DNA of 64,000 nt from Hyphomicrobium sp. (GTDB lineage Bacteria; Pseudomonadota; Alphaproteobacteria; Rhizobiales; Hyphomicrobiaceae): assembly GCA_022844105.1 (NCBI GenBank), contig JALHMJ010000012.1, positions 1 to 64,000 of the forward strand. Direction: 5' to 3'. Under the pieces are notes generated by a model that saw only the letters and a list, made by a program, of their open reading frames with translations, did not search any database and was not told the origin of the DNA. Shown here in pieces: positions 45,938 through 64,000 of this stretch (the first letter of the stretch is position 1; every line of letters starts with the position of its first letter). A program made the position numbers and the translations under genes.

Positions 45938-46227
45938 GGTATTGGCTACCCAATCGGACGGTGGTCAGCCACTCTTGCCCGGTTTGTGCCCCACCCAACT
46001 GAGCCGCAATTGTCGCCGCGCGGGTATTGTGACGCCTTAAGCAATCGTGAATGTTGCGCGCCACCAACCGATGGTAAGCGAGGGGGCCTGATCGAGCCCC
46101 GGAGCAATGCCGCGGCCCGGCAGAATTTATCACCTGCAGCGAATGCCGCGCCTGAAAGCGTCCCTGAAGAGACGCTCGACTTCGCGACCCCGCCGCGCGT
46201 TTCGAACGACCGACTGGAGGAAATATC

Positions 46228-47433
46228 ATGTCCGTCACGCCGCATCTTTTTATTCCCGGCCCCACCACCATTCCCGACGAAGTTCGCATGGCCATGAACG
46301 TGCCCATGATTGACATGCGTTCGGCCGAATATCCCAAGCTGACGCTGCCGATCTTCGAAGACATGAAAAAGGTCTTCAAGATGAAGGATGGCCGGGTCTT
46401 TATCTTCCCGTCGTCGGGCACGGGCGCATGGGAATCGGCGATCCAGAATACGCTGAAGCCGGGCGACAAGGTTCTCATGAGCCGCTTCGGTCAGTTCTCG
46501 CTTCTCTGGGTGGACATGGCCGAGCGTCTCGGTCTCAAGGTCGAGTTATGCGACGAGGAATGGGGCACGGGCGTGCCGCTCGAAAAGTATGCCGACATCC
46601 TCGCCAAGGATAAGGCTCACGAAATTAAAGCCGTCTTTGCAACGCACAACGAAACGGCAACCGGCGTCACCTCGGACATCGCCGGCGTCCGCAAGGCACT
46701 TGATGCAGCCAAGCATCCCGCGCTGCTGTTCGTTGACAGCGTGTCCGGCCTCGGCTCGCTCGACATGCGCATGGGCGACTGGGGCGTTGATTGCTGCGTC
46801 TCCGGTTCGCAGAAGGGCTTCATGCTGCCGACCGGCCTCGGCATCCTTGCCGTCAGCCAGAAGGCGCTCGACGCTAACAAGTCGAACGGTGGCATGGCCC
46901 GCTGCTTCTTTGCCTGGGAAGACCACATCAAGACCAACGATCTTGGCTACTTCCCCTACACGCCGGCCACGCAGCTTCTGCAGGGCCTGCGCTGCTCGCT
47001 TGATCTGATCTTCGCCGAAGGTCTCGACAACGTGTTCGCCCGCCATCACCGCCTTGCTACCGGCGTTCGTGCAGCCGTCGACGCCTGGGGCCTCAAGCTC
47101 TGCGCCAAGGAGCCGAAGTGGCACTCCGACACCGTGTCCGCCATCCTCGCCCCGGAAGGCATCGATAGCGCCGGCATCGTGAAGACGGCCTACTACCGTT
47201 ACAACACCTCACTCGGCGTCGGCCTCAACAAGGTCGCCGGTCGCGTCTTCCGCATCGGTCATCTCGGTGCGTTGGACGAGTTTATGGTTGGTGGCGTACT
47301 GTTCGCGGTCGAAATGACGCTGAAGGATTGCGGCGTGCCGGTGAAGTTCGGTTCGGGCACGGGTGCTGCAGCCGAATACTTCAACAAGACGGCCACCAAG
47401 GCCGCCGAGCTGCCGAAAGCCAAGGCTGCCTGA
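46228..47433 (+). CDS. sgaA: serine--glyoxylate aminotransferase
   Basis: HLFIPGPTTIPDEVRMAMNVPMIDMRSAEYPKLTLPIFEDMKKVFKMKDGRVFIFPSSGTGAWESAIQNTLKPGDKVLM...; cluster context. Confidence 0.93.
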   Translation: MSVTPHLFIPGPTTIPDEVRMAMNVPMIDMRSAEYPKLTLPIFEDMKKVFKMKDGRVFIFPSSGTGAWESAIQNTLKPGDKVLMSRFGQFSLLWVDMAERLGLKVELCDEEWGTGVPLEKYADILAKDKAHEIKAVFATHNETATGVTSDIAGVRKALDAAKHPALLFVDSVSGLGSLDMRMGDWGVDCCVSGSQKGFMLPTGLGILAVSQKALDANKSNGGMARCFFAWEDHIKTNDLGYFPYTPATQLLQGLRCSLDLIFAEGLDNVFARHHRLATGVRAAVDAWGLKLCAKEPKWHSDTVSAILAPEGIDSAGIVKTAYYRYNTSLGVGLNKVAGRVFRIGHLGALDEFMVGGVLFAVEMTLKDCGVPVKFGSGTGAAAEYFNKTATKAAELPKAKAA

Positions 47434-47574
47434 TTGATGACGGCGGTGCCCGGCTAACGGGCGCCGCCGGTCTGCTTCCAGCGACCTGCTTCTCCGGCCC
47501 GGCTAAACCGGATCGTGGCATGGGGCACGTCCGTCGCCCTTTCAAAACTTTGTAAGACAACGAGGAAACGTCCG

Positions 47575-48522
47575 ATGAGCTTCACTCTTTACCCGCTCAA
47601 GCAGCAGCGCCTCCAGCGCTCTGAGCTCGCCGTCCCCGGCTCCAACCCGACAATGATCGAGAAGGCGCTCGTCAGCGCCGCCGACTATGTGTTCCTCGAC
47701 TGCGAAGACGCCGTCGCGCCGCCGGATAAGGAACAGGCCCGTAAGAACATCATTCAAGCCCTGAATGATCTTGACTGGAAGGGCCACGGGAAGACGGTTT
47801 CGGTTCGCATCAACGGCCTCGACACGCACTATTGCTATCGCGATGTTGTCGACATCGTTGAGCAGGCAGGCTCCAAGCTGGATACGATCCTGATCCCCAA
47901 GGTTGGCGTCCCTGCCGACGTTTATGCCATCGAAACAATCGTCAGCCAGATCGAGGAAGCCAAGAAGCTGCCGCACAAGATCGGCACCGAAGCCCTCATC
48001 GAAACGCCGCTCGGCATGGCCAACGTCGAAGCCATCGCTTCGGCCAACAGCCGCCTTGAAGCCATGCACTTCGGCGTCGCCGACTACGCCGCCTTCAACA
48101 AGGCCCGCACGGTTGTCATCGGCGGTTTGAACCCCGACTACCCGGGCGACCAGTGGCACTTCGCCCTGTCGCGCATGACGGTCGCTTGCCGCGCCTACGG
48201 CTTGCGCCCGATTGACGGACCGTTCGGCGACTTCTCCGATCCCGCCGGCTACACCGCCGGTGCCAAGCGCGCGGCCGCACTCGGCATTGAAGGCAAGTGG
48301 GCCATTCACCCCACGCAGATCGAACTCGCCAACGCCGTGTTCTCGCCGACCGCCGCCGAAGTGGATAAGGCCAAGCGTATTATTGTCGCTTTGAAGGAAG
48401 CCGAAGCCCAGGGTAAGGGCGCGGCCTCGCTCGATGGCAAGATGATCGACGCTGCGTCCGAGAAGATGGCCAAGAACATACTCGTGGTGGCCGAAAAGAT
48501 CGCTTCGAGCTCGAGCAAGTAA
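47575..48522 (+). CDS. mcl: L-malyl-CoA/beta-methylmalyl-CoA lyase
   Basis: MSFTLYPLKQQRLQRSELAVPGSNPTMIEKALVSAADYVFLDCEDAVAPPDKEQARKNIIQALNDLDW; ATG 47575. Confidence 0.94.
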   Translation: MSFTLYPLKQQRLQRSELAVPGSNPTMIEKALVSAADYVFLDCEDAVAPPDKEQARKNIIQALNDLDWKGHGKTVSVRINGLDTHYCYRDVVDIVEQAGSKLDTILIPKVGVPADVYAIETIVSQIEEAKKLPHKIGTEALIETPLGMANVEAIASANSRLEAMHFGVADYAAFNKARTVVIGGLNPDYPGDQWHFALSRMTVACRAYGLRPIDGPFGDFSDPAGYTAGAKRAAALGIEGKWAIHPTQIELANAVFSPTAAEVDKAKRIIVALKEAEAQGKGAASLDGKMIDAASEKMAKNILVVAEKIASSSSK

Positions 48523-48565
48523 AACAGAAACGAACGGCTGAATTCGATCCAGGAGGTCCCGACCA

Positions 48566-49735
48566 ATGGACATTCACGAATACCAGGCCAAGGAGCTGCT
48601 TTCGCGGTTTGGCGTCACCGTCCCGCGCGGCGGTCTCGCCTACAGCCCCGAGCAGGCCGTCTATCGCGCCAACGAGATTGGCGGCGCGAAGTGGGCTGTA
48701 AAAGCGCAGATCCATTCCGGTGCCCGTGGCAAGGCCGGTGGCATCAAGCTGTGCCGTTCGGACAACGAAATCGAGGAAGCGGCCGAGTCTCTGCTCGGCC
48801 GCCGCCTCGTCACCAATCAGACGGGCCCGCAAGGCAAGCTCGTCTCCCGCCTCTATATTGAAGAGGCAACCGACATCGACAAGGAGATCTATCTTTCCTT
48901 CGTCATGGACCGCGCGGCAGAGCGCATCGTGGTCGTCGCCTCCGCCGCAGGCGGTATGGACATCGAAGAGATCTCCCACAGCCGTCCCGATACGCTGATC
49001 AAGGTGGAGGTCGACCCAGCCGTCGGCATGCAGGCATTCCAAGCGCGTGAAGTCGCCTTCGGCCTGGGCATTGAACCAGAGCTGATCTCCAAGATGGAGC
49101 GCACTATTCTGGGCGCCTATCGCGCTTTCCGTGACCTGGACGCGTCCATGGTTGAGATCAATCCGCTCGTCATCACCAAGCAGAAGAATGTCGTGGCGCT
49201 CGACGCCAAGATGAGCTTCGACGAGAACGCGCTGTTCCGCCGCCCGCAGATTGCGGAACTGCGCGACAAGAGCCAGGAAGATCCGCGCGAAACCTACGCA
49301 TCGGATCGTGGGCTCGCCTACGTCGGCCTTGACGGCAATATCGGCTGCATCGTCAACGGCGCCGGCCTCGCCATGGCCACCCTCGACATGATCAAGCTGG
49401 CCGGTGGCGAACCCGCTAACTTTCTCGACATTGGCGGTGGCGCATCCCCCGAGCGCGTGACGAAGTCATTCAAGGCGGTCCTGCGCGACAAGAACGTCAA
49501 GGCCATTCTGGTCAATGTATTCGCCGGCATCAATCGCTGCGACTGGGTCGCAAAGGGCGTCGTCGATGCAGTCAAGGAACTCGAGATCAAGATGCCGATC
49601 GTCGTCCGCCTCGCCGGTACCAACGTCGAGGAAGGCCGTCGCATCATCGATACGAGCGGTCTGACGGTGATCAGCGCCGAGTCACTGGCCGATGCGGCTG
49701 AGAAAGCCGTCGCCGCCGTGAAGTCCGCAGCTTGA
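48566..49735 (+). CDS. mtkA: malate--CoA ligase (malate thiokinase) beta subunit
   Basis: [65 protein letters not shown]; SucC-like, in serine-cycle cluster. Confidence 0.9.
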
Positions 49736-49754
49736 GGGAAGAGGAGTAAGTCTC

Positions 49755-50651
49755 ATGGCGATTTTCATCAACGAGAACACCCCGATCCTCATCCAAGGTT
49801 TCACGGGACGGATCGGTACCTTCCACGCGCAGGAAATGATCGACTACGGGTCGAACGTTGTCGGCGGCGTCACACCTGGAAAAGGCGGCTCGACGCATCT
49901 TGGTCGTCCGGTTTTCAACACCGTCAAAGGCGCGGTTCAGGAAACCGGCGCGGAAGCGTCCATTGTCTTCGTGCCACCGCCTTTCGCGGCCGATGCGATC
50001 ATGGAAGCCGCAGACGCGGGCATCAAATACTGTGTCTGCATCACTGATGGTATTCCCTCCCAGGACATGATCCGAGTGAAGCGCTACATGCGCCGCTACA
50101 AAAAGGTAAACCGCATGGTGCTGACCGGGCCGAATTGTGCCGGCACGATCTCGCCCGGCAGGGCGATGCTCGGCATTATGCCGGGCCACATCTACATGCC
50201 CGGCCGCGTTGGCATCGTCGGACGGTCCGGTACGCTCGGCTATGAAGCCGCCGCGCAGTTGAAGGACCTTGGCATCGGGGTCTCGACCTCGGTCGGTATC
50301 GGCGGCGATCCGATCAACGGCTCGTCACATCGTGATATCCTCGAATACTTCGAGAACGATCCAGAGACCGATGCCGTCTTGATGATTGGCGAAATCGGCG
50401 GCCCGCAGGAAGCCGAAGCCGGGCAATGGGCGCAGGCCAACATGAAAAAGCCTGTTGTTGCCTACATCGCGGGTCTGTCGGCCCCGAAAGGCCGCCGCAT
50501 GGGCCATGCCGGTGCCATCGTATCGGCCTTCGGCGAATCGGCAGCCGAAAAAGTGGAATTGCTAAAGGGCTGTGGCGTCACCATCGCTGCGACACCGTCC
50601 GAAATGGGCGCCACCATTGCCAAGGTCTTGCAGGCCCGCAAGGCCGCTTGA
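49755..50651 (+). CDS. mtkB: malate--CoA ligase (malate thiokinase) alpha subunit
   Basis: MAIFINENTPILIQGFTGRIGTFHAQEMIDYGSNVVGGVTPGKGGSTHLGRPVFNTVKGAV; SucD-like, in serine-cycle cluster. Confidence 0.9.
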   Translation: MAIFINENTPILIQGFTGRIGTFHAQEMIDYGSNVVGGVTPGKGGSTHLGRPVFNTVKGAVQETGAEASIVFVPPPFAADAIMEAADAGIKYCVCITDGIPSQDMIRVKRYMRRYKKVNRMVLTGPNCAGTISPGRAMLGIMPGHIYMPGRVGIVGRSGTLGYEAAAQLKDLGIGVSTSVGIGGDPINGSSHRDILEYFENDPETDAVLMIGEIGGPQEAEAGQWAQANMKKPVVAYIAGLSAPKGRRMGHAGAIVSAFGESAAEKVELLKGCGVTIAATPSEMGATIAKVLQARKAA

Positions 50652-50832
50652 TCGACGGCGCCGAGCGCGTCTGACATATCCGCCGTCCGCAACCCGCAAA
50701 GGGCTGCGGGCGGCCAATAATGAGCGACCAGTCGGGCCAACGAGCCGTTCGAGATCTTGCCGGTACGGGGGTATCGACCCTACTCTCGGCGGCGAAGCCT
50801 GATCTGGCCTGTCCCCACTGGAGGAATGCCGC

Positions 50833-53694
50833 GTGGATACCATCAATCCGCAGATCTCGGTTCTCGACGAGTTCAAGCTGCGCGACGAACTGAAGGCCAT
50901 GCGAGCCCAGATTCCTGATGCGCCGGGCCTGAACCCGATCGTCAACATCGGGTTTTACCTTTCGCGCAGTCTGGAATCGGGAAAGATCAGCTTTGCAGAT
51001 CTGAAGGCGCTCGCGGACCGTCTGATGGACCGGGCCTGTGTTCGCCGCGCCAAGCGCTTGCGCGAGCAAATCGGCTATGTCGACAATCAAACGACGATCC
51101 GCGACTTCACGCAATTCGTGGCCAAGACCGCGAGCAACAACGGCTTGAACACAGACGCGGCATTCGAAGCGTTCAAAGAGCGTTGGGGCCGCTCTCGCAA
51201 CGGCATCGTGTTCACCGCCCATCCAACGTTTGGTCTGTCCGAGGCGCTGAGCCGCCGCATGGTCGAGATCGCATCGGGTGAATTGCGGGGCGAACCAGCG
51301 ATCGGTCTGCCCCACCGCCCAGACAGCAACATCACTCTCGATTACGAACATCGCGCGGTGCAGGTCTGCATCCAGAATCTGCGTGACGCTTACGAAGAGT
51401 TATTGAACGGCTTCTATTCGGTCGCGGCCGCCGGGTTCGGCGAACGCGCCTACAAGTTCCGCCCCAAGATCGCCACCGTCGCCTCATGGGTCGGCTACGA
51501 CCTCGACGGCCGCACGGATATCAAGTGGACTCACTCCTTCGTTCTGAAGCTGCAGGAGAAGGTGGCCGCGCTGCAGGATATTCGCACGCGGTTTATTATC
51601 CTGAAGCATCGCCTGACGGATGAGGTCGAGGCGCAGCGCATCGCACGCCAGATCGTGGCCAAACTCGATCTCGCCATCGCGTCTGCTGAAAAGCAGCTCG
51701 ATAGTTTGAACGCAGCCCTCAACGGCAAGCAGAAACTATCGGACGCTGCCAACATCATCACCGAGGCCGACGCTTACAATTTGACGTCGCCGCAGCCGGT
51801 CATCGCTCTGATCGACCACCTCATCGATCATATCCCTCAAACTCAGTCGAAGCGCGAACTGGCCGCGCTTGCCAGCCTGTTCGATCAAACCGGCATGGGG
51901 ACGTCGCACATCCATCTGCGCGTCAATGCCGTGCAGCTGAACAACGCCTTCCGCGCCTTCGTGCACGAGCCCTGGACGCGCGACCTGACCGAACGCCAGG
52001 CGCTCGCCCGCATCGTGGAAATGATCCGCACCGCCGGCAAGGAAACCGTCAACTTCGAAACACTCGATCTCGAAACCGCAACAGCCATCCGCCAGTTCGC
52101 TCTTGCGGCCCAGTTCCACAAGCACGTCGATCGCGACACGCCGATCCGCTACCTCATCGCCGAGTGCGAGAGCCCGGCCACGATGCTGATCGCGCTGTTC
52201 TTCGCCAAACTGTTCGGCGTCGATCACGTCGTTGACATCTCGCCGCTGTTCGAAACGCCGGCTGCACTCGAAACCGGCGCCCGCCTCATCGAGCGCCTGT
52301 TGGAGGAAGAGGCCTACAAAAACTATGTTCGCGGCCGCAAGCGCCTGTGCATACAGACCGGCTTCTCCGACGCTGGCCGGTTCATCGGCCAGATCGCGGC
52401 GACGCTGTCGATCGAGCGCCTGCATCAGGGCCTCGCGGAAGTCCTCGACGCCAAAGAACTTGGCGGGGCAGAGGTGTTGATTTATTCGACGCATGGCGAA
52501 TCCATGGGGCGCGGAACGCACCCTGGCCATATGTCGTCGCGTTTGCAGTATGTGTTTTCGCCCAACGCCCGCCGCCGCTTCGCCGAGGCCGGGCTTCCGC
52601 TGAAGCACGAGACGAGCTGGCAAGGCGGCGACGGATACTTGTATTTCGCGACCAAGCCGCTCGCGATGCGTGCGCTCGCTACTGTGATCATGGACGGAGA
52701 AACGCCGGAAGCCGTCGAGGATGAATTCTACGACGATACCAACCTGGCGCTCGACTTCCTGCTCCGCTTGCGCGCCTACCAGCAGGATCTTTTTGCCCAC
52801 CCCGGTTACCGGGCCGTCCTCGGGGCTTTCGGCCCGAACCTGCTGTTCAAAACCGGGTCTCGTCCGGTGAAGCGCCAGATGGAGGGCGCCTCCACGGCCG
52901 ATCGCGGCGATCCCGCTCGCATGCGCGCCATTCCCAACAACGCAATTTTGCAGCAGTTCGGATATGTGGCCAACGTCGTCGCTGGCCTCGGCGCGGCCGT
53001 CGGCTCAGAACGCGAGCGCTTTGTCGAGGTCGCGAAATCATCCGCACGCCTGCGTCCGTTGATCGAAATGGTCGCCCGCGGCAAACAGATTTCAAGTCTC
53101 AACGCCATGGGCGCCAACGCGACCGTCTTCGATCCCGGATTCTGGGCGATGCGCGCCTCATGGGGTCGCGAGCCGCATTTGACCGCGGCCTTCAAGAATC
53201 TTTCGACGTTCCTGCTTGAAGATGGGCGCAACGCCGCCATCAATGGTCTCGTCCATGAGCTGCGCCTCGATGCCATCGATCTGCACACGCTCCTGGAAGA
53301 CATCGGCATCGACGGCGGCAAAGTCCCCGATGACGACCGTCTGGAACTCGACTTGCTGCAGGCGATCCGCCTGGCTCTCATTATGCGGGTGTTCATTTTG
53401 TCGGGCCAGTTGCCCCGCTTTACCACGCGCGACGTGAGCCACGCCCAGATTGTCGCGTCCGCATTGACACTTGAGGTGCCCGAAGTCATCAGCGTCATGC
53501 GTCAAGCGTTTCCGAAGCGGACCGGTACGGTCGAAGAGACGACGGCATTCCGCGAGACGGCAACGTATTTGCCCCAGGGCATCGACGATTACGGCCGCAT
53601 CGAAACGGAGATCTTGGAACCGATGGAGCAGGCCTACGAGGCGATCCGCGAGATTGGAACCGGCATCTCGCACCACTTCGGCGCCTTTGGCTGA
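50833..53694 (+). CDS. ppc: phosphoenolpyruvate carboxylase
   Basis: IVFTAHPTFGLSEALSRRMVEI..., LIAECESPATMLIALFFAKLFGVDHVVDISPLFET, YSTHGESMGRGTHPGHMSSRLQYVF; GTG start. Confidence 0.92.
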   Translation: MDTINPQISVLDEFKLRDELKAMRAQIPDAPGLNPIVNIGFYLSRSLESGKISFADLKALADRLMDRACVRRAKRLREQIGYVDNQTTIRDFTQFVAKTASNNGLNTDAAFEAFKERWGRSRNGIVFTAHPTFGLSEALSRRMVEIASGELRGEPAIGLPHRPDSNITLDYEHRAVQVCIQNLRDAYEELLNGFYSVAAAGFGERAYKFRPKIATVASWVGYDLDGRTDIKWTHSFVLKLQEKVAALQDIRTRFIILKHRLTDEVEAQRIARQIVAKLDLAIASAEKQLDSLNAALNGKQKLSDAANIITEADAYNLTSPQPVIALIDHLIDHIPQTQSKRELAALASLFDQTGMGTSHIHLRVNAVQLNNAFRAFVHEPWTRDLTERQALARIVEMIRTAGKETVNFETLDLETATAIRQFALAAQFHKHVDRDTPIRYLIAECESPATMLIALFFAKLFGVDHVVDISPLFETPAALETGARLIERLLEEEAYKNYVRGRKRLCIQTGFSDAGRFIGQIAATLSIERLHQGLAEVLDAKELGGAEVLIYSTHGESMGRGTHPGHMSSRLQYVFSPNARRRFAEAGLPLKHETSWQGGDGYLYFATKPLAMRALATVIMDGETPEAVEDEFYDDTNLALDFLLRLRAYQQDLFAHPGYRAVLGAFGPNLLFKTGSRPVKRQMEGASTADRGDPARMRAIPNNAILQQFGYVANVVAGLGAAVGSERERFVEVAKSSARLRPLIEMVARGKQISSLNAMGANATVFDPGFWAMRASWGREPHLTAAFKNLSTFLLEDGRNAAINGLVHELRLDAIDLHTLLEDIGIDGGKVPDDDRLELDLLQAIRLALIMRVFILSGQLPRFTTRDVSHAQIVASALTLEVPEVISVMRQAFPKRTGTVEETTAFRETATYLPQGIDDYGRIETEILEPMEQAYEAIREIGTGISHHFGAFG

Positions 53695-53790: not shown

Positions 53791-55116
53791 TCAAAGCAAT
53801 CCCAGCAGTCGCGGTAGCGTCAGCGATAGCGCCGGCCAATACGTAACCAGGATCAAAAATCCAAGCATAGCCACCAGCCACGGCACGACCGCGCGCGACG
53901 TCTCCGACAATCCGAGTTTGGAAATCCCACTGGTGACATAAAGGTTGAGCCCCACGGGCGGCGTGATCATACCGATCTCCATGTTGACCACCAGAATGAT
54001 GCCGAAGTGGACCGGATCGATGCCGAGTTTGGCGGCTACCGGAAACAGGATCGGCGCCAGGATCAGCATGATCGATGCCGGCTCCATCATGGTGCCCGCG
54101 ATCAGCAGCATGATATTGACCACGATCAGGAACGTGATCCAGCCGAACCCCTGCGCCACGATCCAGTCGGCAATCGCCTGCGGTAGGTGCTCGTGCGTGA
54201 GAAGAAACGAGAACAGCATCGCATTGGTGATGATGTAGAGCAGCATTGCGCTCATGTTCGCCGCCGTCAGGAGCACCTTTGGAACATCGCCCCAATCGAT
54301 GTCGCGGTAGACGAACTTGGCAACGGCAAAGGCATAAACTGCACTGAGAGCCGCGGCTTCGGTTGGAGTGACAAAACCTCCATAAATTCCGCCAAGCACA
54401 ACCGCGATCAGCGCCAACCCCCAGCTACAGTCCCGAAAGGCGGCAAACGCCTCGCCCCACGTTGCGCGCTGCGCCCGAGGATAGCCTTCCTTTTTCGCGA
54501 TCCACCACGTCACCGTCCCGAGCACGAAAGCGAGCAGGATGCCGGGCACGACGCCTGCCATGAACAGATCATCGACGGAGGGCGCCGGAACGCGTTCGCC
54601 ATTCGGGCCCGTGGCGCTCATGCCGGACGTGGCGAGCGCGTAGAGCACCATCACGATCGACGGCGGAATGAGAATTCCGAGCGTTCCCGATGACGCGATC
54701 ACGCCGGCCCCGAACCGTGGTGGATACCCTTGCGCCACCATCGCTGGAAGGAGAATCGAGCCGATCGCGATCACGGTGGCCGGCGACGAACCGGAGATCG
54801 CGGCGAAGATGGCGCAAGCCAGAACGGAAGCGATGCCGAGCCCGCCAGGCAAGTGGCCTGTCATCGCGATAGCGAACCGGATCATGCGCTTGGCGACCCC
54901 GCCGTGCGTCAGGAATGTCCCGGCAAGAATGAAAAACGGCACCGACATGATTTCGAACTTTTCCATGCCGGTAAAAAGTTTGAGCGCCACCGCATCGAGC
55001 GGTACGTCCGTAATGGTAAAGAGTACCGTCAACACCGTGAGCCCCAGTGCGATCGAGACGGGTGTTCCGGTCAACAGCAAGGCGATGAGCAGACCGAAGA
55101 TGAGCAAGGAGGTCAC
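53791..55116 (-). CDS. dctM: TRAP transporter large permease subunit DctM
   Basis: LTVLFTITDVPLDAVALKLFTGMEKFEIMSVPFFILAGTFLTHGGVAKRMIRFAIAMTGHLPGGLGIASVLACAIFAAISGSSPATVIAIGSI. Confidence 0.93.
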   Translation of the reverse strand: MTSLLIFGLLIALLLTGTPVSIALGLTVLTVLFTITDVPLDAVALKLFTGMEKFEIMSVPFFILAGTFLTHGGVAKRMIRFAIAMTGHLPGGLGIASVLACAIFAAISGSSPATVIAIGSILLPAMVAQGYPPRFGAGVIASSGTLGILIPPSIVMVLYALATSGMSATGPNGERVPAPSVDDLFMAGVVPGILLAFVLGTVTWWIAKKEGYPRAQRATWGEAFAAFRDCSWGLALIAVVLGGIYGGFVTPTEAAALSAVYAFAVAKFVYRDIDWGDVPKVLLTAANMSAMLLYIITNAMLFSFLLTHEHLPQAIADWIVAQGFGWITFLIVVNIMLLIAGTMMEPASIMLILAPILFPVAAKLGIDPVHFGIILVVNMEIGMITPPVGLNLYVTSGISKLGLSETSRAVVPWLVAMLGFLILVTYWPALSLTLPRLLGLL

Positions 55117-55733
55117 GGGCGGACCTCTTTCGACATCACTTCGCTCGCGGGATCATAGTGCGGCAACGTACCGGTCTTGGAAAAGTGTGCCGCAACCTGG
55201 AGGAAGCGAAAACACATCAAGAATGAGCCCAGTGGCAAGCACAGGTAGATGAGCCACATTGGCGCTTCCAGGACAGCCGAGACTTGCCCGGAAACGAACA
55301 GATGCACGACGAGGCGTGTCCCGAGCCACCCGACGAATGCGGTAAAAATTACGCCGCAGTAGAGCCCGAACAGGATCATGCGGTGTCGCGCACGCGGTGG
55401 CAGCCGATTGACGAGAACATCGACGCCGACGTGGATGCCGGTGCGCACGCCATAGGCCGCGCCGAATTTGGCCATCCAGACGAATAAGTAAATGCACAGT
55501 TCCTGTGCCCAGGTGAGGCGGATCGACAGCAGCCAGAAGTAGATCGCCCGTAGCACATCCGATAAATCATCATAGCCGGCATCATGCGTCCACACGACCA
55601 GGCCGCCCAAATGCGAGAGCAGATAGCGGTGGACGACCGCGACGAAAATAACCAGTGTTGCAAGCCCCATCAGCGTTGCGATGAGGTTTTCTTCCAGGCG
55701 GTCGAGCCACCTGAGTCGCGGACCGGATGTCAT
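55113..55733 (-). CDS. dctQ: TRAP transporter small permease subunit DctQ
   Basis: LDRLEENLIATLMGLATLVIFVAVVHRYL...WAQELCIYLFVWMAKFGAAYGVRTGIHVGVDVLVNRLPPRARHRMIL; 4-bp overlaps with neighbours. Confidence 0.9.
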   Translation of the reverse strand: MTSGPRLRWLDRLEENLIATLMGLATLVIFVAVVHRYLLSHLGGLVVWTHDAGYDDLSDVLRAIYFWLLSIRLTWAQELCIYLFVWMAKFGAAYGVRTGIHVGVDVLVNRLPPRARHRMILFGLYCGVIFTAFVGWLGTRLVVHLFVSGQVSAVLEAPMWLIYLCLPLGSFLMCFRFLQVAAHFSKTGTLPHYDPASEVMSKEVRP

Positions 55734-56776
55734 GGCCCCGACCTCGAAAGCTCGGTTTCGATGCGCGCAAGAAGATCTCGGCCAACCCGATCGGCGATGC
55801 GGCCGCGAACCGGCAGCAGTGCTGCCTCCCAGGACTTTCGTTCGTCAGGCGTCGGGTCATGCATCGCGGTCTTGCCGGATTTTGTCACCGCGGCCAGTGC
55901 ATCGGCGTTCTCCTTTGCCGCCTCCGCATTTGCATATGGGGTGGCATCGCGAAGTGCGCGCTCGAGAGCCGAGCGGATGTCGTCGGGAAGCCCCGTCCAG
56001 AATTTTTGATTGACGATCACCGCGTAGCCGAGAAAGCCGTGGTAGGTGAGCGTTGCGTGGCGCTGAACCTGAAACATGTTCTGATTGAAAAAATTGGCGG
56101 GTGGATTTTCCGTCCCGTCGACCACACCGGATGATAGAGCTTGATACGCCTCCGAAAAGGCCAACACTTGCGGTAGGGCGCCGAGCGCGGTCATCTGCTC
56201 TTCGATGACCCTCGACGATTGTATCCGGACCTTGAGACCCAGCAGGTCGTCTGGCCGCAACAGAGGCTTGTTCGCCGACAAAATCTTGAAGCCGTTGTTC
56301 CAATAGCCGAGCCCGGTGATACCCTTCGTTTCCAGCTTATCGAGAATGTCTCGGCCGATCGGCCCTTCGGTGATCCGTGCCAGTTCCGCCGTGTCACGGA
56401 AGAGGTAAGGTATGTCGAACACTTCGAACGCCTTGATGCCCAGCGGACCAAACTTCGACAGCGACGGCGCCAGTATCTCGACCGCGCCAAGCTGCAACGC
56501 CTCCAACTCTTCTTTATCTTTATAGAGTTGTGAATTCGGGTACAGAGCGATGCGCACGCGTCCGCCTGTGTACTCCTCCGCCAACTTTTTGAAACGCTCC
56601 GCGCCTTTGCTCTTGTGGGCCTGCGGGGCTGCCACGTGACTGAACTTGATGACGATCGTCGCAGGAGTGGGTTGAGCTGCCGCATGAGCGGAACCGGCGC
56701 AACACAAGACCGCAATGAGAAGGACGATGATGCGGCGCATAAGGTCCATCGGCTTGGGGTTGAAACGTGCGAACAT
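55730..56776 (-). CDS. dctP: TRAP transporter substrate-binding protein DctP
   Basis: Signal peptide MRRIIVLLIAVLCCAGSAHA; VIKFSHVAAPQAHKSKGAERFKKLAEEYTGGRVRIALYPNSQLYKDKEELEALQLGAVEILAPS; start may be 56740. Confidence 0.92.
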   Translation of the reverse strand: MFARFNPKPMDLMRRIIVLLIAVLCCAGSAHAAAQPTPATIVIKFSHVAAPQAHKSKGAERFKKLAEEYTGGRVRIALYPNSQLYKDKEELEALQLGAVEILAPSLSKFGPLGIKAFEVFDIPYLFRDTAELARITEGPIGRDILDKLETKGITGLGYWNNGFKILSANKPLLRPDDLLGLKVRIQSSRVIEEQMTALGALPQVLAFSEAYQALSSGVVDGTENPPANFFNQNMFQVQRHATLTYHGFLGYAVIVNQKFWTGLPDDIRSALERALRDATPYANAEAAKENADALAAVTKSGKTAMHDPTPDERKSWEAALLPVRGRIADRVGRDLLARIETELSRSGP

Positions 56777-56996: not shown

Positions 56997-57941
56997 TTAT
57001 GACCGCTGTCGGCGACCCCCTTCGGTTTGCAAGGCCCCCTTCAGTTCCTCGGCTGTCAGTGCAAACACCTCGCCCGAGCTATCCTCGGTCTCCAGCCACA
57101 AAAACGGCAGGTTGGGAAACTCGTCCTCTAAAAGGTCGAGCCCCGTACCAACTTCAACGACGAGCACGCCGTCGCGTTCCAAATGCTGGGCGGCCTCGGC
57201 AAGAATTTGGCGCACGAGGTCGAGACCATCCGCACCGCCTGCGTGAGCCAGAAGCGGTTCGGCTTTGTACTCTGGTGGAAATGCTGCGACGGCGGCGGCC
57301 GAGACGTAGGGCGGATTGGAGATGATGAGATCGTACCGTCGCGAACCGAGCGCTGCGAATAAATCCGACTGCTGCAGCGTGATGCGCCCTTGCAGGTCAT
57401 AGTCGGCGACATTTCGATGGGCGACCGCCAGTGCATCGGCCGACAAGTCGACGGCGTCGACGATCGCGTTGGGGTAGGTAAGTGCTGCCAGAATGGCCAG
57501 GCACCCGGACCCGGTGCACAGATCGAGCACCGAGGTCACGGCCTCGGGATCGGGAACGACGGTTGCCAGCTCACCGTCGAGCAGCTCACCGATGTAGGAT
57601 CGCGGCACGATCGCCCGTTCATCTACATAGAAGTCACGTCCGCGGATGTAGGCCCGGTTGACGAGATAGGGTGCCGGTTTGCGGGTTTCGATGCGTCGAT
57701 CGATAAGCTCGGCAATGCGGCTGCGCTCGCTCGCCGTCAGACGGCAATCGAGCCACGGATCAAGCTGGTCGATAGGCAACTCCAGCGACGTAAGAATGAG
57801 AAACGCCGCCTCGTCGATGGCGCTCGACGTTCCATGTCCATAAACCAGCTTGGCCGCCCGGAAACGCGACACGCCGTAGCGCAGCCAGTCACGTACCGTG
57901 TTGAGGTCTGCGAGGCGGCTTTGTGCATCATCGGCAGTCAT
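56997..57941 (-). CDS. prmB: 50S ribosomal protein L3 N5-glutamine methyltransferase
   Basis: SVLDLCTGSGCLAILAALTYPNAIVDAVDLSADALAVAHRNVADY...YDLIISNPPYVS; ATG 57941. Confidence 0.92.
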   Translation of the reverse strand: MTADDAQSRLADLNTVRDWLRYGVSRFRAAKLVYGHGTSSAIDEAAFLILTSLELPIDQLDPWLDCRLTASERSRIAELIDRRIETRKPAPYLVNRAYIRGRDFYVDERAIVPRSYIGELLDGELATVVPDPEAVTSVLDLCTGSGCLAILAALTYPNAIVDAVDLSADALAVAHRNVADYDLQGRITLQQSDLFAALGSRRYDLIISNPPYVSAAAVAAFPPEYKAEPLLAHAGGADGLDLVRQILAEAAQHLERDGVLVVEVGTGLDLLEDEFPNLPFLWLETEDSSGEVFALTAEELKGALQTEGGRRQRS

Positions 57942-58015
57942 GGGGCATTGGCTCCGCGGGCGATGGCGCACCCTAGCGCGTCTGTGCGCTGGCCAACAGC
58001 GGCCAGCGCAACTGT

Positions 58016-58747
58016 TCAGCCCTTGAATTCCTCGATTTTGCCGAAAGCTTCCCTCAGAGCGGAAGCCCAGGACCCCGAGAGTTTCTTGAAATACTCGTCA
58101 TCCTGGTAAATGCGACGGTAGCGCTGCACTTCCAGGCTGTCGCGCTCGTAGAGCAGCAGGTCGATTGGCATTCCCACCGACAAGTTCGATCGCAAGGTCG
58201 AATCGAAGGAAAGCAAGACCAGTTTGGCCGCCTCGCCCAGGCGCATACTGGATTGTGCCACGCGATCGAGGATCGGCTTGCCGTATTTATGTTCGCCGAT
58301 CTGCAGGAATGGCGCATCGTCGGACGCTTCGATGAAGTTGCCCTCGGAATAGATTTGGAAAATTCTCGGCGGCTCGGAACCGATTTGCCCGCCCAGGATG
58401 AACGAAGCGAAAAACCCGCTCCGCGTCGCTTCCAGGGCTTCCCCATCCACACGCCGCACTTCCCGCACCGCATCGCCCACAAGGCGGGCCGCACGGTACA
58501 TGGACGTCACGGTCATCAAGGTGTGCTCGACGCCGGAACCGTCTGCGAGCTGCTCGTTGAGAATACTGATAACCGACTGGCTCACGCCGAGGTTGCCGGC
58601 CGTCAACAGAACGATGACCCGGTCCCCTGGCTGTCGCCAAAAGTGCAACTTGCGAAACTGCGAAATATTGTCGACGCCGGCATTCGTACGGGTATCGGCG
58701 GCAAAGACGATGCCGCAGTCAAGACGCAGGGCAACGCCGTAAGTCAT
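58016..58747 (-). CDS. proteasome-type peptidase, Anbu (ancestral beta-subunit)
   Basis: MTYGVALRLDCGIVFAADTRTNAGVDNISQFRKLHFW: Thr directly after Met, Asp17, downstream Lys; co-located with the typical Anbu partner genes. Confidence 0.93.
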   Translation of the reverse strand: MTYGVALRLDCGIVFAADTRTNAGVDNISQFRKLHFWRQPGDRVIVLLTAGNLGVSQSVISILNEQLADGSGVEHTLMTVTSMYRAARLVGDAVREVRRVDGEALEATRSGFFASFILGGQIGSEPPRIFQIYSEGNFIEASDDAPFLQIGEHKYGKPILDRVAQSSMRLGEAAKLVLLSFDSTLRSNLSVGMPIDLLLYERDSLEVQRYRRIYQDDEYFKKLSGSWASALREAFGKIEEFKG

Positions 58748-58764
58748 GAAGATAAGCGCTCGCG

Positions 58765-59580
58765 CTATTGCTGCTGTTGAGCGCTTTGCTGCTGGACTTC
58801 GACCACCACGTCAAGTGTCTCGTTCTCGCCGCCCCGGCGATTGCCCCGGATCGGCGCGGCCGTTGCAGCATCAAGACCCGTCGCAAGGCGCACATAACGC
58901 TCCGTCGGGCAAATCAGGTTTGTCGGGTCAAACCCCACCCAGCCGAGCCCGTCCACCCAGGCTTCCGCCCACGCATGATGTGCATCAGAGGGATCGGGCG
59001 TACCGGAAAGGAAATAGCCGTTGACGTAGCGGGCGGGGATGCCCATCACCCGCGCGCCGGCAATGAAGATGTGCGCGTAGTCTTGGCACACACCCCGGCC
59101 ATCGGCCAGAGCCTCCGCCGCGCTGGTGTGCGAGTGCGTGCTGCCGATTTCGAAGGTAACCTCTTCGCGCACGGTGTGCATCAGCCGGTGCAGCTTATCG
59201 AGCGTGCACCCGCCTTTGCATTTGGCGGCGATGTCGCGGATGGAATCGTCTGGCGCCGTTCGTGGGGTCTCGCGCAGGAATACCCGCAGCGGCGTCGGCT
59301 CCGACAGGCCTTTCGCCACCCCGATACGGTCTTCCGTATCGACAATGCCGCCGGCTTCGATGGTGATGCAGTTGTGCTCGTCCTGCAGCGCTGTCAGGTG
59401 CACGACATTGCCAAAACCATCTTGAAAGCGCGCCGCCTTTTCGATGCCGGGAGCATTCACCTGCCAGGACAAAACCTTCTGGCCATCGAAACTGGGCGGG
59501 GTCAGTCGTAGACTTTCGATCGCATACCGCGCCAATGTTTCGTAGCGGTAGGTCGTCGTATGTTTGACGCTCAACAGCAT
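58765..59580 (-). CDS. transglutaminase-like cysteine protease family protein
   Basis: MLLSVKHTTTYRYETLARYAIESLRLTP...ADGRGVCQDYAHIFIAGARVMGIPARYVNGYF...DAHHAWAEAWVDGLGWVGFDPTN (Cys/His/Asp triad). Confidence 0.93.
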   Translation of the reverse strand: MLLSVKHTTTYRYETLARYAIESLRLTPPSFDGQKVLSWQVNAPGIEKAARFQDGFGNVVHLTALQDEHNCITIEAGGIVDTEDRIGVAKGLSEPTPLRVFLRETPRTAPDDSIRDIAAKCKGGCTLDKLHRLMHTVREEVTFEIGSTHSHTSAAEALADGRGVCQDYAHIFIAGARVMGIPARYVNGYFLSGTPDPSDAHHAWAEAWVDGLGWVGFDPTNLICPTERYVRLATGLDAATAAPIRGNRRGGENETLDVVVEVQQQSAQQQQ

Positions 59581-59587
59581 GACAGCC

Positions 59588-60535
59588 TCAACCGTTGAAG
59601 TGATAGCCCTCGGAGATCTCCCGGCCGAGCCGGTTGTTGCGGCCGAGGAAATCCGTCAGGAATTCGTGCAGCCCCGACTGGAATATGGTGTCGATATCGC
59701 CTTTTTCCAGCATCGCCAGCGTTTCGCGCGCCGTCGGTACGCAATTGTCGGTTTGTCCGTAAAACTTTTTCAGGCCGGCCACCGCTTGGTCGATCTCGAT
59801 ATAGCTGGCCGTCAGAGAGCGCGGCATCTCGGCGTTGAGGATCAGATAGTCCGCTATGTTCCACGGCTTGTAAGCCTGCCGGTAGACCCAGCGATAGCTC
59901 CGGTGGGCTGAAACCGATCGCAGGATCGACGCCCACTGCAGATTGTCGACGCTGGACCCGATCATCTCATAATTAGGCAGAAGGACAAAATACTTGACGT
60001 CAAGGATGCGTGCCGTGTTGTCGCCGCGCTCCAGGAACGTTCCGAGTTGGCTGAAGTAGAACGTATCGTTGCGCAAGATTGTGTTGAGCAGCGCGCCGCG
60101 ATACGTCGCCGAGCGCTCTTTGATCCAGTCGAGCAGGGCCGGCAGCCGGTCGGATGTTACGTCACGTGGATTGATAGCCTGAAAATCGATCCAGGCGCCG
60201 TTGAGGCTTTCCCACATTTCGCGTGTCAGCGCCGTCCTCTGAGCCCTCGCATTTCGGCGCGCAACGGAAAAGCAGGTTCTGACGCTGGACGGATTGTCGG
60301 CATCGAACAACAGGTAATCGATTACGTTCGTCGTGGTCGGTGTTTCGTGTTTGGCGAGAAAGCCGCTCTCGCAGCCCGCGCTTTGCAGCGTTGAACGCCA
60401 CTCCTCGTTGTAGCCCTCGCCTTCGCGCGGAAGGAGCGCGATGCGGTAGCCGACTTCGATGAGACGCGCCATGTTCTCCGCGCGTTCGAGATAGCGCGAG
60501 AGCCAGAACAGATCGTTTGCCGTGCGGCCAAGCAT
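59588..60535 (-). CDS. alpha-E domain-containing protein (DUF403)
   Basis: MLGRTANDLFWLSRYLERAENMARLIEVGYRIALLPRE..., LGTFLERGDNTARILDVKYFVLLP. Confidence 0.93.
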   Translation of the reverse strand: MLGRTANDLFWLSRYLERAENMARLIEVGYRIALLPREGEGYNEEWRSTLQSAGCESGFLAKHETPTTTNVIDYLLFDADNPSSVRTCFSVARRNARAQRTALTREMWESLNGAWIDFQAINPRDVTSDRLPALLDWIKERSATYRGALLNTILRNDTFYFSQLGTFLERGDNTARILDVKYFVLLPNYEMIGSSVDNLQWASILRSVSAHRSYRWVYRQAYKPWNIADYLILNAEMPRSLTASYIEIDQAVAGLKKFYGQTDNCVPTARETLAMLEKGDIDTIFQSGLHEFLTDFLGRNNRLGREISEGYHFNG

Positions 60536-60582
60536 GAAAATCAACCAGAGTTCGTGTTGTCGTCCGAGAGCCTATCCGTTCT

Positions 60583-61998
60583 TCAGTCCTGTAAGATCCA
60601 GGTATCTTTCGTTCCACCGCCCTGGCTGGAGTTGACGACAAGTGAGCCGTCCCTGAGAGCCACGCGCGTCAAGCCGCCGGGCACGAGCCGCACCCTGTCG
60701 CCGACAAGAACGAACGGACGCAGATCGAGATGCCGTGGCGCCAAGCCACCGTCCACCAATGTCGGGCAGGTCGACAACGCAAGTGTCGGCTGCGCGATGT
60801 AGTTGTGCGGCCGGGCTTTCAACTTCTGGCGAAACTCCTCAATTTCCTTTTTCGACGCGGTTGGCCCGACGAGCATTCCGTAGCCGCCCGAGCCGTGCAC
60901 TTCCTTCACGACGAGCTCTTCCAGGTGCTCCAGCACATAAGCCAGATCGCCCGCGTTGCGGCAGTTGCGCGTCGGCACGTTGTTCAGGATCGGCGGCGAA
61001 CCGGTGTAGAATTTCACAATCTCTGGAATGTAGCTGTAGATCGCCTTGTCGTCCGCGATACCGGCACCCGGCGCGTTGACGATTGTGACCCGGCCAGAGC
61101 GGTAGACGTCAAAGAGCCCCGGCACGCCGAGCAGCGAGGTTGGATCGAACACCAGGGGATCGAGGAAATCGTCGTCGATGCGGCGGTACAGAACATCGAC
61201 CTGCTGCAACCCCTGCGTTGTTTTCATATACAGCGCGCCGTCGACGACGACGAGGTCTTGTCCCTCCACGAGCTCCACGCCCATCTGATCGGCGAGGAAC
61301 GAATGTTCATAATACGCGCTATTGTACAGACCGGGCGTCAACAGCGCGATATTCGGATCGCGGTCGAGATTTTTATCGGCGACGCTCTCCAGCGTTTTGA
61401 GGAGATTGTCGGGATAGGTCTCGATCGGCGCAACGCGGTTCTTTGCGAAAAGGTCGGGGAACATGTGCATCATCGTTTCCCGGTTCTCCAGCATGTAGGA
61501 GACGCCGGACGGCGTGCGCGTGTTGTCTTCCAGAACGTAGAAATCGTTCGGCCCCGTTCGGACGATGTCGATGCCCAGGATGTGCGAATAAATTCCCAGC
61601 GGTGGATCAACTCCGATCATTTCCGGCACAAAGGCGCTGTTCTGGACGACAAGCTCTTCCGGAAGCCGCCCGGCCCGCAGGATCTCTTGCCGGTGGTAGA
61701 TGTCGTACATGAACGCGTTCAGCGCCTTTACGCGCTGTTCGATCCCGGCCGCGAGCCGCCGCCATTCCGACGCGGATATGATGCGCGGGATGATGTCGAA
61801 CGGGATCAGCCGCTCGGCGGCCTCCCCGTCGCCGTAAACGGCAAACGTGATTCCGGTCCGGCGAAACAAGGCCTCGGCCTCACTTCGCTTCTTCTTCAGG
61901 TCGTCGATTTTCTGGGTTTCGAGCCACTCGGCCACGGCGCGGTAGGGCTCACGCACACCACCGCCAAAGCCATTCATCTCGTCGAAGGCTTTCGACAC
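60583..61998 (-). CDS. circularly permuted type 2 ATP-grasp protein
   Basis: GITFAVYGDGEAAERLIPFDIIPRIISASEWRRLAAGIEQRVKALNAFMYDIYHRQEILRAGRLP...VLEDNTRTPSGVSYMLENRE...HGSGGYGMLVGPTASKKEIEEFRQKL; GTG start, GGGGGA RBS. Confidence 0.93.
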   Translation of the reverse strand: MSKAFDEMNGFGGGVREPYRAVAEWLETQKIDDLKKKRSEAEALFRRTGITFAVYGDGEAAERLIPFDIIPRIISASEWRRLAAGIEQRVKALNAFMYDIYHRQEILRAGRLPEELVVQNSAFVPEMIGVDPPLGIYSHILGIDIVRTGPNDFYVLEDNTRTPSGVSYMLENRETMMHMFPDLFAKNRVAPIETYPDNLLKTLESVADKNLDRDPNIALLTPGLYNSAYYEHSFLADQMGVELVEGQDLVVVDGALYMKTTQGLQQVDVLYRRIDDDFLDPLVFDPTSLLGVPGLFDVYRSGRVTIVNAPGAGIADDKAIYSYIPEIVKFYTGSPPILNNVPTRNCRNAGDLAYVLEHLEELVVKEVHGSGGYGMLVGPTASKKEIEEFRQKLKARPHNYIAQPTLALSTCPTLVDGGLAPRHLDLRPFVLVGDRVRLVPGGLTRVALRDGSLVVNSSQGGGTKDTWILQD

Positions 61999-62300
61999 GT
62001 CAGACGTTCCCCCAGGTCATGCATTGTTGCCAACGGTAAGCGCAAAGAGCGGGCCAAATAAAAAACATCGAATTTTCAGTTGGTTGGCTGGAAGGATGAC
62101 ACTTTTTGGCCGCTGGACAGGCGGCCCTTGCCTGAATTTTAGTCATACGCGGGACAATCGACAGGGATAAGCGTTGAATGCCCAAACAATAGCCTCGGCG
62201 ACCGAGAGCGCTGTTCCCGACCCTGCCATCTTTGCCCGTGATACTAGTAAATACGGGCGGCGTCGCGTGCGATGCCTTGGGCGATGATGGATTGGGGAGC

Positions 62301-64000
62301 ATGACGCGCCGCTTGGGGGACGTTAGTCAGGATGCGTCAGGGAGCCCCGCGGCGGCAGGGACCGAGCGTGTTGGCGTCATCGTCATTCACGGGGTGGGCG
62401 AAACCCAGGCCGGCTGGATCAACGACAGCCTGCTGCCCCGTCTGGCCCAACATGAGGGCCATCCGGAATTCGAAGCCCACAGCGAGGTTTATGATCTTCC
62501 TGACCGCGGACGCAATCGCCCGGGACTTCGCTTCAAAGCCTATGTCCGCCGGGGTCGCACCTTAGCGGGCGACCATCTCGCCCTGATGGAGATGACGTGG
62601 GCCGATCTCTCGCGCATCGGGACCGGTTCGCTTGCGAATTGGCTGGTGATGCTGAAGTTGTTTTACGAGGCCCCTCAAGTTCTCGGGGAATGTTTCTTTG
62701 ACAAGACCCGCAATGGTTTCGCGACAGTCATCGAAAATCTGGTCCGTGGCGCAAATTGGATCCTGCGCTGGCCGATAACGGGCTTGAATATTGTCGCCTT
62801 GGTTTGCGCTGTCGTTCTGCTGTTGCGCCAAAAGCTGCTTGAAATGCCCGACCTGCAATTGGTCATGCCGGTTGCGCTGCCTACGGTCATGATCGCGTTG
62901 CTGCTGCTCCTCGCCGCCGTATCGCTATGGTTCGCCCGATGGCGCGTCTATCGCGACATCGCGCTGACCGATATCGGCATGTCGACGATGATGTTTTCGC
63001 TATTGTCGGCCGCAGCGATTTTCGCCACGCAAAATTTGATCTCCGCCGATGTTTTGGCAAACCCGGCCGTTTACCTCATGGCCGCGGGCGTGACGATCTT
63101 CGGCTTCTGGCTCATTTGGAATTATGCGATTTTTCTCGCCATTCTTGTTCTGATAGCTCTTGCCATTCAGCAGTGGATCGGCGGACGCAGCGTGACGCGC
63201 ATTCCCGTCATCCGGCCAGCTGCCGCAGTCAGTCTGAGCATCGCCCAGGGCGTCATCTATAAAATCGCCATTGCCCTGTTGTGGATTTTCATTTTCGTCA
63301 CGCTGGATTTCAACGAGCGAACCCAAACGGCCTGCCAGCACGACCCTATGCAAGCCTGTAGCTACTTGGCCGAAGTCCAAAAGAACCTCGTCGGCATCGT
63401 CGTCTTTAACCTGATCATGGTGTCGATCCTCGCCGTGACCTTCTTCACAATTGCCATGACGAGATCGTTCCTGCGTGTTCCTGCCCGCCGCACGAGGTCG
63501 CTTGCATCCTTCTGGATGCCGCGCATGATCGTGAATCCGATTGCGATCCTCGTCCTGCTGGGCGGCACGCTGTTTAATTTGATCATCTTTTACTGGCGTG
63601 ACGTCATCCCGGTCGATTTTTATCGCCAGATCGACGTGCGCCTTTTGCCCTGGCAGGAGGTCGTCAAGGTGATGGTCGGCGGCGGAACGGCGCTGTCTGT
63701 CGTCTTCTATGCGTTTCGTGCGTTGCAGCACGCATCCAGAGGCATCCTCCACATTGGCCGTGACATCGTGGATCACCAGTTCACGCCGCGGTTCTCGGTG
63801 TCGCGTTATCTACTGCCGCGGCCGACTCATATGGGGCTGGCACACCCGCGCCGGGCCCGTATCGAAGCCCGCCTCGACGTGTTGCTGAAGGAGATTGTCG
63901 AGCGAGAGGAATTCGACCGACTGGTATTCATCGCGCACTCTCAAGGCAGCGTGATCTTGCATGACTATCTGTCTGGCAACCAAGACGAACAAATTCTTTC
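62301..64000 (+). CDS. multi-pass membrane protein with split alpha/beta-hydrolase-like motifs, 3'-truncated by window end
   Basis: Manual translation from ATG 62301 is open to the window end: MTRRLGDVSQDASGSPAAAGTERVGVIVIHGVGETQAGW... several TM segments ...EEFDRLVFIAHSQGSVILHDYLSGNQDEQIL. Not in the ORF track because the stop lies outside. Confidence 0.85.
   Translation, partial: MTRRLGDVSQDASGSPAAAGTERVGVIVIHGVGETQAGWINDSLLPRLAQHEGHPEFEAHSEVYDLPDRGRNRPGLRFKAYVRRGRTLAGDHLALMEMTWADLSRIGTGSLANWLVMLKLFYEAPQVLGECFFDKTRNGFATVIENLVRGANWILRWPITGLNIVALVCAVVLLLRQKLLEMPDLQLVMPVALPTVMIALLLLLAAVSLWFARWRVYRDIALTDIGMSTMMFSLLSAAAIFATQNLISADVLANPAVYLMAAGVTIFGFWLIWNYAIFLAILVLIALAIQQWIGGRSVTRIPVIRPAAAVSLSIAQGVIYKIAIALLWIFIFVTLDFNERTQTACQHDPMQACSYLAEVQKNLVGIVVFNLIMVSILAVTFFTIAMTRSFLRVPARRTRSLASFWMPRMIVNPIAILVLLGGTLFNLIIFYWRDVIPVDFYRQIDVRLLPWQEVVKVMVGGGTALSVVFYAFRALQHASRGILHIGRDIVDHQFTPRFSVSRYLLPRPTHMGLAHPRRARIEARLDVLLKEIVEREEFDRLVFIAHSQGSVILHDYLSGNQDEQIL

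Follow-up and report, generated by a model that had tools for sequence, protein, structure and literature searches.

What do the partners of Anbu make, and what does Anbu itself cut? Anbu, which is closely related to the proteasome, is present in many bacteria. We addressed this question at a locus in a 64,000-nucleotide stretch of Hyphomicrobium sp. DNA (assembly GCA_022844105.1, contig JALHMJ010000012.1, positions 1 to 64,000; hereafter the window), where four minus-strand open reading frames without internal stops occupy positions 61998-58016 and are separated by gaps of 47, 7, and 17 nucleotides, just as an earlier note on this DNA had described. By its sequence, the locus is a standard copy of the published Anbu operon (Anbu-1 type), which is a type already known. 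The family assignments made in the earlier note were borne out by Pfam, with matches for all four proteins that exceed the family cut-offs (values in the list are expect values, E):

60583 to 61998, minus strand: circularly permuted ATP-grasp ligase (PF14403), GTG start, 471 amino acids; CP_ATPgrasp_2 E = 3.9e-164
59588 to 60535, minus strand: alpha-E protein (PF04168), ATG start, 315 amino acids; Pfam Alpha-E E = 1.1e-91
58765 to 59580, minus strand: predicted transglutaminase-fold cysteine peptidase, 271 amino acids; Transglut_core 6.1e-24, Bact_transglu_N 9e-19
58016 to 58747, minus strand: Anbu (Anbu-1 subtype), an N-terminal threonine hydrolase of the N-terminal nucleophile (Ntn) class and the proteasome family, 243 amino acids; Pfam Proteasome 7.3e-7

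An alternative alpha-E start is possible at a TTG codon at 60544, and the closest relatives by DNA scan were Hyphomicrobium assemblies at 93% identity. The earlier note was also correct in treating the association of these families as known and its substrate and product as not established. The reading that we favor, with a probability of roughly 0.6, sees the operon as a nitrogen-starvation module whose enzymes form and cleave a specific amide bond; part of this chemistry has been shown in homologues, and we infer the substrate.

We compared the locus with the Anbu operon of Fuchs 2017 (PMC5666114) and Piasecka 2017/2018 (PMC6376114), the latter citing earlier treatments by Valas and Bourne 2008 and Iyer 2009. 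The window has the same four families, order, strand, catalytic residues, and Anbu-1 S1 pocket, and nothing essential differs; what this copy adds is a recognizable sigma-54 element and a prmB neighbor, an arrangement that most relatives do not share. All four genes stood in order and on one strand in 59 of 80 Anbu loci, while another 6 are cut by contig ends and have remaining genes that agree with the operon order. Thirteen loci (L053, L058, L062, L064-L068, L074, and L078-L081), mostly in Roseomonas-, Belnapia-, and Azospirillum-type genomes, carry ATP-grasp, alpha-E, and Anbu without an intervening transglutaminase gene, and the remaining loci of this set are one that is divergent and one with Anbu alone. 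A phylum-wide sample gave the full order in 27 of 40 loci and Anbu alone in five (L152, L157, L176, L182, and L190), where no operon partner was present in the flank examined; each of these five genomes has an ATP-grasp gene elsewhere, which for L182 lies just outside that flank. An ATP-grasp with 50-66% identity was kept, nearby or elsewhere, by all seven tested genomes whose Anbu is without an adjacent intact ATP-grasp/alpha-E operon. Likewise, Bact_transglu_N proteins occur elsewhere in 9 of 9 searched genomes with a transglutaminase-less or Anbu-only locus, where they may belong to a sister system that is described below. Anbu is patchy, being present in 13 of 40 genomes of its own family and in 87 of 249 genomes of the phylum sample. 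The four-gene order is far beyond chance, and the linkage, whose absence from related genomes the earlier note would have counted against its claim, is kept across relatives.

We then looked at the enzymes themselves. The ATP-grasp is homologous to the solved structure 3n6x along its whole length (E = 9.5e-202), shares the motifs VLEDN, ADDK, VVKEVHGSGGYG, and DLRPF with its relatives and 3n6x, and has its key residues (E157-D158-N159, K318, K365, and R427) at least 97% conserved in an alignment of 72 sequences, which speaks against the dead ATP-grasp site that the earlier note had named as a concern. The transglutaminase-fold protein matches the solved 3isr (E = 1.3e-18), and its Cys/His/Asp triad, described before as intact, is indeed present as C165/H202/D218 and at least 97% conserved (67 sequences). 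Anbu matches the solved Anbu structures 5nyj, 5nyf, 5loy, 5nyw, and 5lox (five distinct sequences) with E values from 2e-109 to 4e-65. The best of these, 5nyj and 5nyf (E about 1e-109), are alignable to the window Anbu over residues 1-241, with differences that amount to ordinary orthologue-level divergence. Thr1 directly follows the start Met, with no propeptide, and the proposed nucleophile with its partners Asp17 and Lys32 (T2, D18, and K33 counting the Met) is present and at least 97% conserved across 81 sequences. Compared by position, the S1-pocket residues T20, F30, T48, L52, and S55 are all identical to those listed for the Anbu-1 of P. aeruginosa (Pa-Anbu; PMC5666114). Since the catalytic residues and the S1 pocket are conserved, none of the enzymes looks dead. 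The word peptidase that the earlier note applied to Anbu stays a prediction, since peptidase activity was found for none of the Anbu proteins assayed, among them a purified one from Hyphomicrobium (PMC6376114, which cites its characterization by Vielberg et al.). Elsewhere in the genome, we also observed a second proteasome-family gene, HslV-sized, as a 193-amino-acid frame at G000:C15:4067-4576 (L084; E = 6.7e-22).

The proteasome fold, the conserved Thr1/Asp17/Lys32 set, and the proteasome-like S1 pocket fit a published scheme (Iyer 2009 and Valas and Bourne 2008, as cited in PMC6376114), in which the ATP-grasp would attach a peptide tag to proteins and Anbu would degrade these proteins or remove the tag in the manner of a proteasome. 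We consider such a tagging role unlikely, as no AAA+ unfoldase accompanies the operon, Anbu is reported to form an open (lock-washer) ring and not a closed chamber, standard proteasome substrates were left uncleaved by every Anbu tested (PMC6376114, PMC5666114), and pull-downs did not detect specific interactions between the operon proteins (PMC6376114). The Thr1 of Pa-Anbu does react with epoxomicin (PMC5666114), and phosphate release from ATP was reported for the ATP-grasp of Y. bercovieri (Yb) (PMC6376114); both results come from homologues.

The ATP-grasp also bears on a second alternative, namely that its product is an amide other than a protein (a peptide-polyamine conjugate, for example), on which the transglutaminase-fold enzyme and Anbu would act as amidases, comparable to glutathionylspermidine synthetase/amidase. 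This alternative overlaps with the favored module and differs from it in specifying that the product is a small metabolite. The closest solved ATP-grasp, 3n6x, carries the annotation of a putative glutathionylspermidine synthase. However, our ATP-grasp profile search, run at E up to 1, did not find the true glutathionylspermidine synthetase structures and returned nothing beyond 3n6x and an arginase match that we attribute to chance; we therefore do not treat this annotation as independent evidence, and membership of the ATP-grasp in the glutathionylspermidine synthetase family was rejected as not supported by this search. On the other hand, non-proteasome Ntn hydrolases cleave small amides (PMC6376114), and in marine metagenomes, domains of urea metabolism were found to cluster with DUF403/404/407 and Bact_transglu_N (PMC3597751). 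We keep a small-metabolite product as a tentative alternative.

The regulation of the operon offers a further clue. Upstream of the first gene, we found one candidate promoter:

62041 to 62056, minus strand: predicted sigma-54 (-24/-12) promoter element TGGCCCG-CTCT-TTGCG, 58 nucleotides upstream of the ATP-grasp GTG

The element fits 10 of 12 positions of the consensus used (TGGCACG-N4-TTGCW, with GG at -24, GC at -12, and 10-nucleotide spacing), and its GG-N10-GC core is present. A lone match in the window was discarded as evidence, with 12 matches found against 12.8 expected in 64 kb. We instead scored orthologous upstream regions for sites that fit the consensus at 10 or more of its 12 positions, using distal and reverse segments as controls, and found a match on the forward strand of the proximal 150 nucleotides in 22 of 67 regions compared to 1, 0, 2, 0, and 0 in the controls. 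The separate phylum-wide sample gave 9 of 33 upstream regions compared to 0, 0, 0, 0, and 1, with one perfect 12/12 site; relatedness among the loci of a sample means that these counts are not independent events, but from one clade to another the sites vary in both sequence and distance. In addition, the window and its two closest relatives (L003 and L004) agree at 17 of the 20 positions of an alignment block that contains most of the element, whereas the other complete 20-column blocks upstream reach 0-11. Because of the position and control tests together with this conserved footprint, we retain the predicted sigma-54 element. A scan for sigma-70-type promoters gave no hit for the coding strand of the operon and one match on the other strand, at about chance level, so the separate internal promoters that the earlier note had named as a possible objection have left no such sign.

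The genome carries one sigma-54 gene (rpoN), and COG3484 is presumably Anbu. A COG3484 proteasome-type protease is listed in predicted sigma-54 regulons (PMC12316311), and P. putida PP_2685-2688, which comprises a proteasome-like gene, a transglutaminase gene, and two further genes, is upregulated under nitrogen limitation, a response assigned to NtrB/NtrC (PMC7801951). The sigma-54 element here agrees with that induction, although P. putida belongs to a different class of bacteria and the window is without an identified NtrC site. The idea of sigma-54 control is not new; the evidence for it at this locus is. Together, these findings suggest that the conserved element would switch the operon on when nitrogen is short.

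From its sequence, alpha-E is an internal duplication, since the two halves align to each other (hhalign probability 98.4%, E = 1e-14, 133 columns, 20% identity) and each carries the motif ER[AG][DE]N.AR once, at residues 17 and 169. An AlphaFold2 model is all-helical with a predicted local distance difference test (pLDDT) score of 91.4, and Foldseek returned no meaningful PDB match for it (best E 0.7, template modeling (TM) score below 0.3). Sequence searches for a solved relative gave only weak cullin-4B matches (E 0.002-0.008) over a helical segment, which we judged to be chance. Neither by sequence nor by predicted fold does this duplicated domain have a recognized PDB counterpart.

The same genome carries a sister operon on contig C4 (L083:1971-8851; G000:C4, about 45970-52850), which encodes a DUF2126-transglutaminase of 1099 amino acids, a fused ATP-grasp/alpha-E protein of 856 amino acids, and a further transglutaminase of 290 amino acids. 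It differs from the Anbu operon in that no Anbu gene is present among the C4 neighbors examined, a large DUF2126-transglutaminase protein is present instead, and ATP-grasp and alpha-E are fused. The fused ATP-grasp has changed motifs (EDN to DSH, K318 to R, and K365 to R), and the alignment does not show its C-terminal NSSQGGGTKDTW as retained; this ATP-grasp may have lost its activity or have a different chemistry. Since the two proteins are fused here and ATP-grasp/alpha-E fusions are widespread in the family, this arrangement supports ATP-grasp and alpha-E being physical partners. A model of the fused protein had a predicted TM score (pTM) of 0.61 with low confidence in the linker and is not part of that support. 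The B. cenocepacia cluster BCAM1233-1236 encodes ATP-grasp, alpha-E, and transglutaminase-type proteins as here and is NtrC/sigma-54 dependent; directly upstream of the sister operon genes, there was no sigma-54-like match.

How might these parts work together? In the nitrogen-starvation module that we favor, the operon would be transcribed as one message from the sigma-54 promoter. Together with alpha-E, its constant partner, the ATP-grasp would proceed through an acyl-phosphate to a specific amide bond of the isopeptide or gamma-glutamyl type. That bond would then be cleaved or remodeled by the transglutaminase-fold cysteine enzyme and by the open ring of Anbu, the latter through its Thr1, a step that may release or recycle nitrogen. 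The genes, their order, their intact catalytic residues, their conserved linkage, and the conserved sigma-54 element were observed in this analysis. Phosphate release by the ATP-grasp, the reactivity of the Anbu Thr1, and nitrogen-linked induction are observations on homologues, and we infer the bond, its substrate, and the pairing between ATP-grasp and alpha-E. Taking homologue biochemistry and regulation together, an amide module for nitrogen starvation is the best reading of this locus.

Several observations weigh against it. Published work reports cleavage by none of the Anbu proteins and describes no product of a ligation (PMC6376114, PMC5666114). The transglutaminase is not strictly needed in the operon, as it is not beside Anbu in 13 of 80 loci. 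A clear sigma-54 element is missing in many orthologues, including most Roseibium and Roseomonas loci, and sigma-54 regulation is therefore not universal. We also found no NtrC palindrome near the operon and no excess of such sites within the window.

The surroundings of the operon raise one further possibility, as two features follow Anbu on the same strand:

57985 to 58010, minus strand: hairpin with a perfect 10-base-pair GC-rich stem and no T-run, just after the Anbu stop codon
56997 to 57971, minus strand: prmB-type glutamine methyltransferase; TIGR03533 (NCBIfam, L3 type), 391.8 bits

The earlier note placed prmB 74 nucleotides downstream in the same direction and suggested that it could be co-transcribed. 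The direction and the distance hold for the prmB ATG at 57941 (44 nucleotides with the GTG at 57971), and this proximity would be expected if prmB and the four genes formed one functional unit tied to ribosome modification. However, prmB lies beside Anbu in only 2 of 80 loci, L003 and L004, which are both closest relatives, and among 40 phylum-sampled loci it was seen in a single case, upstream and on the other strand. The hairpin stands in the gap, and the 44-nucleotide gap folds at -21.8 kcal/mol; the hairpin is not in the terminator scan list, as that scan requires a T-run, and was not seen in L003 and L004. Given the 2 of 80 loci and the GC-rich hairpin between the genes, co-transcription is unlikely to matter. 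We rejected prmB as a fifth operon member, consider a shared function in ribosome modification highly improbable, and regard prmB as probably a neighbor that is not part of the system. Just downstream of prmB, on the same strand, is a complete tripartite ATP-independent periplasmic (TRAP) transporter (DctP, DctQ, and DctM; window 53791-56776). On the other side, a divergent plus-strand open reading frame at 62232-63998 runs off the window and shares the upstream region with the operon; it has hydrophobic stretches and, near its start, the motif VIVIHGVGE, which recalls lipases.

The interest of this locus lies in the nitrogen condition and the duplicated alpha-E. The conserved sigma-54 promoter points to nitrogen limitation as a concrete condition under which to study Anbu, and because the ATP-grasp so regularly accompanies Anbu, the substrate of Anbu may be what the ATP-grasp makes. 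More speculatively, Anbu could be a dedicated hydrolase, and not a general protease, for an undescribed amide-linked nitrogen compound or tag that would be made by the ATP-grasp and the duplicated alpha-E, with both its synthesis and its breakdown under sigma-54 control at nitrogen shortage.

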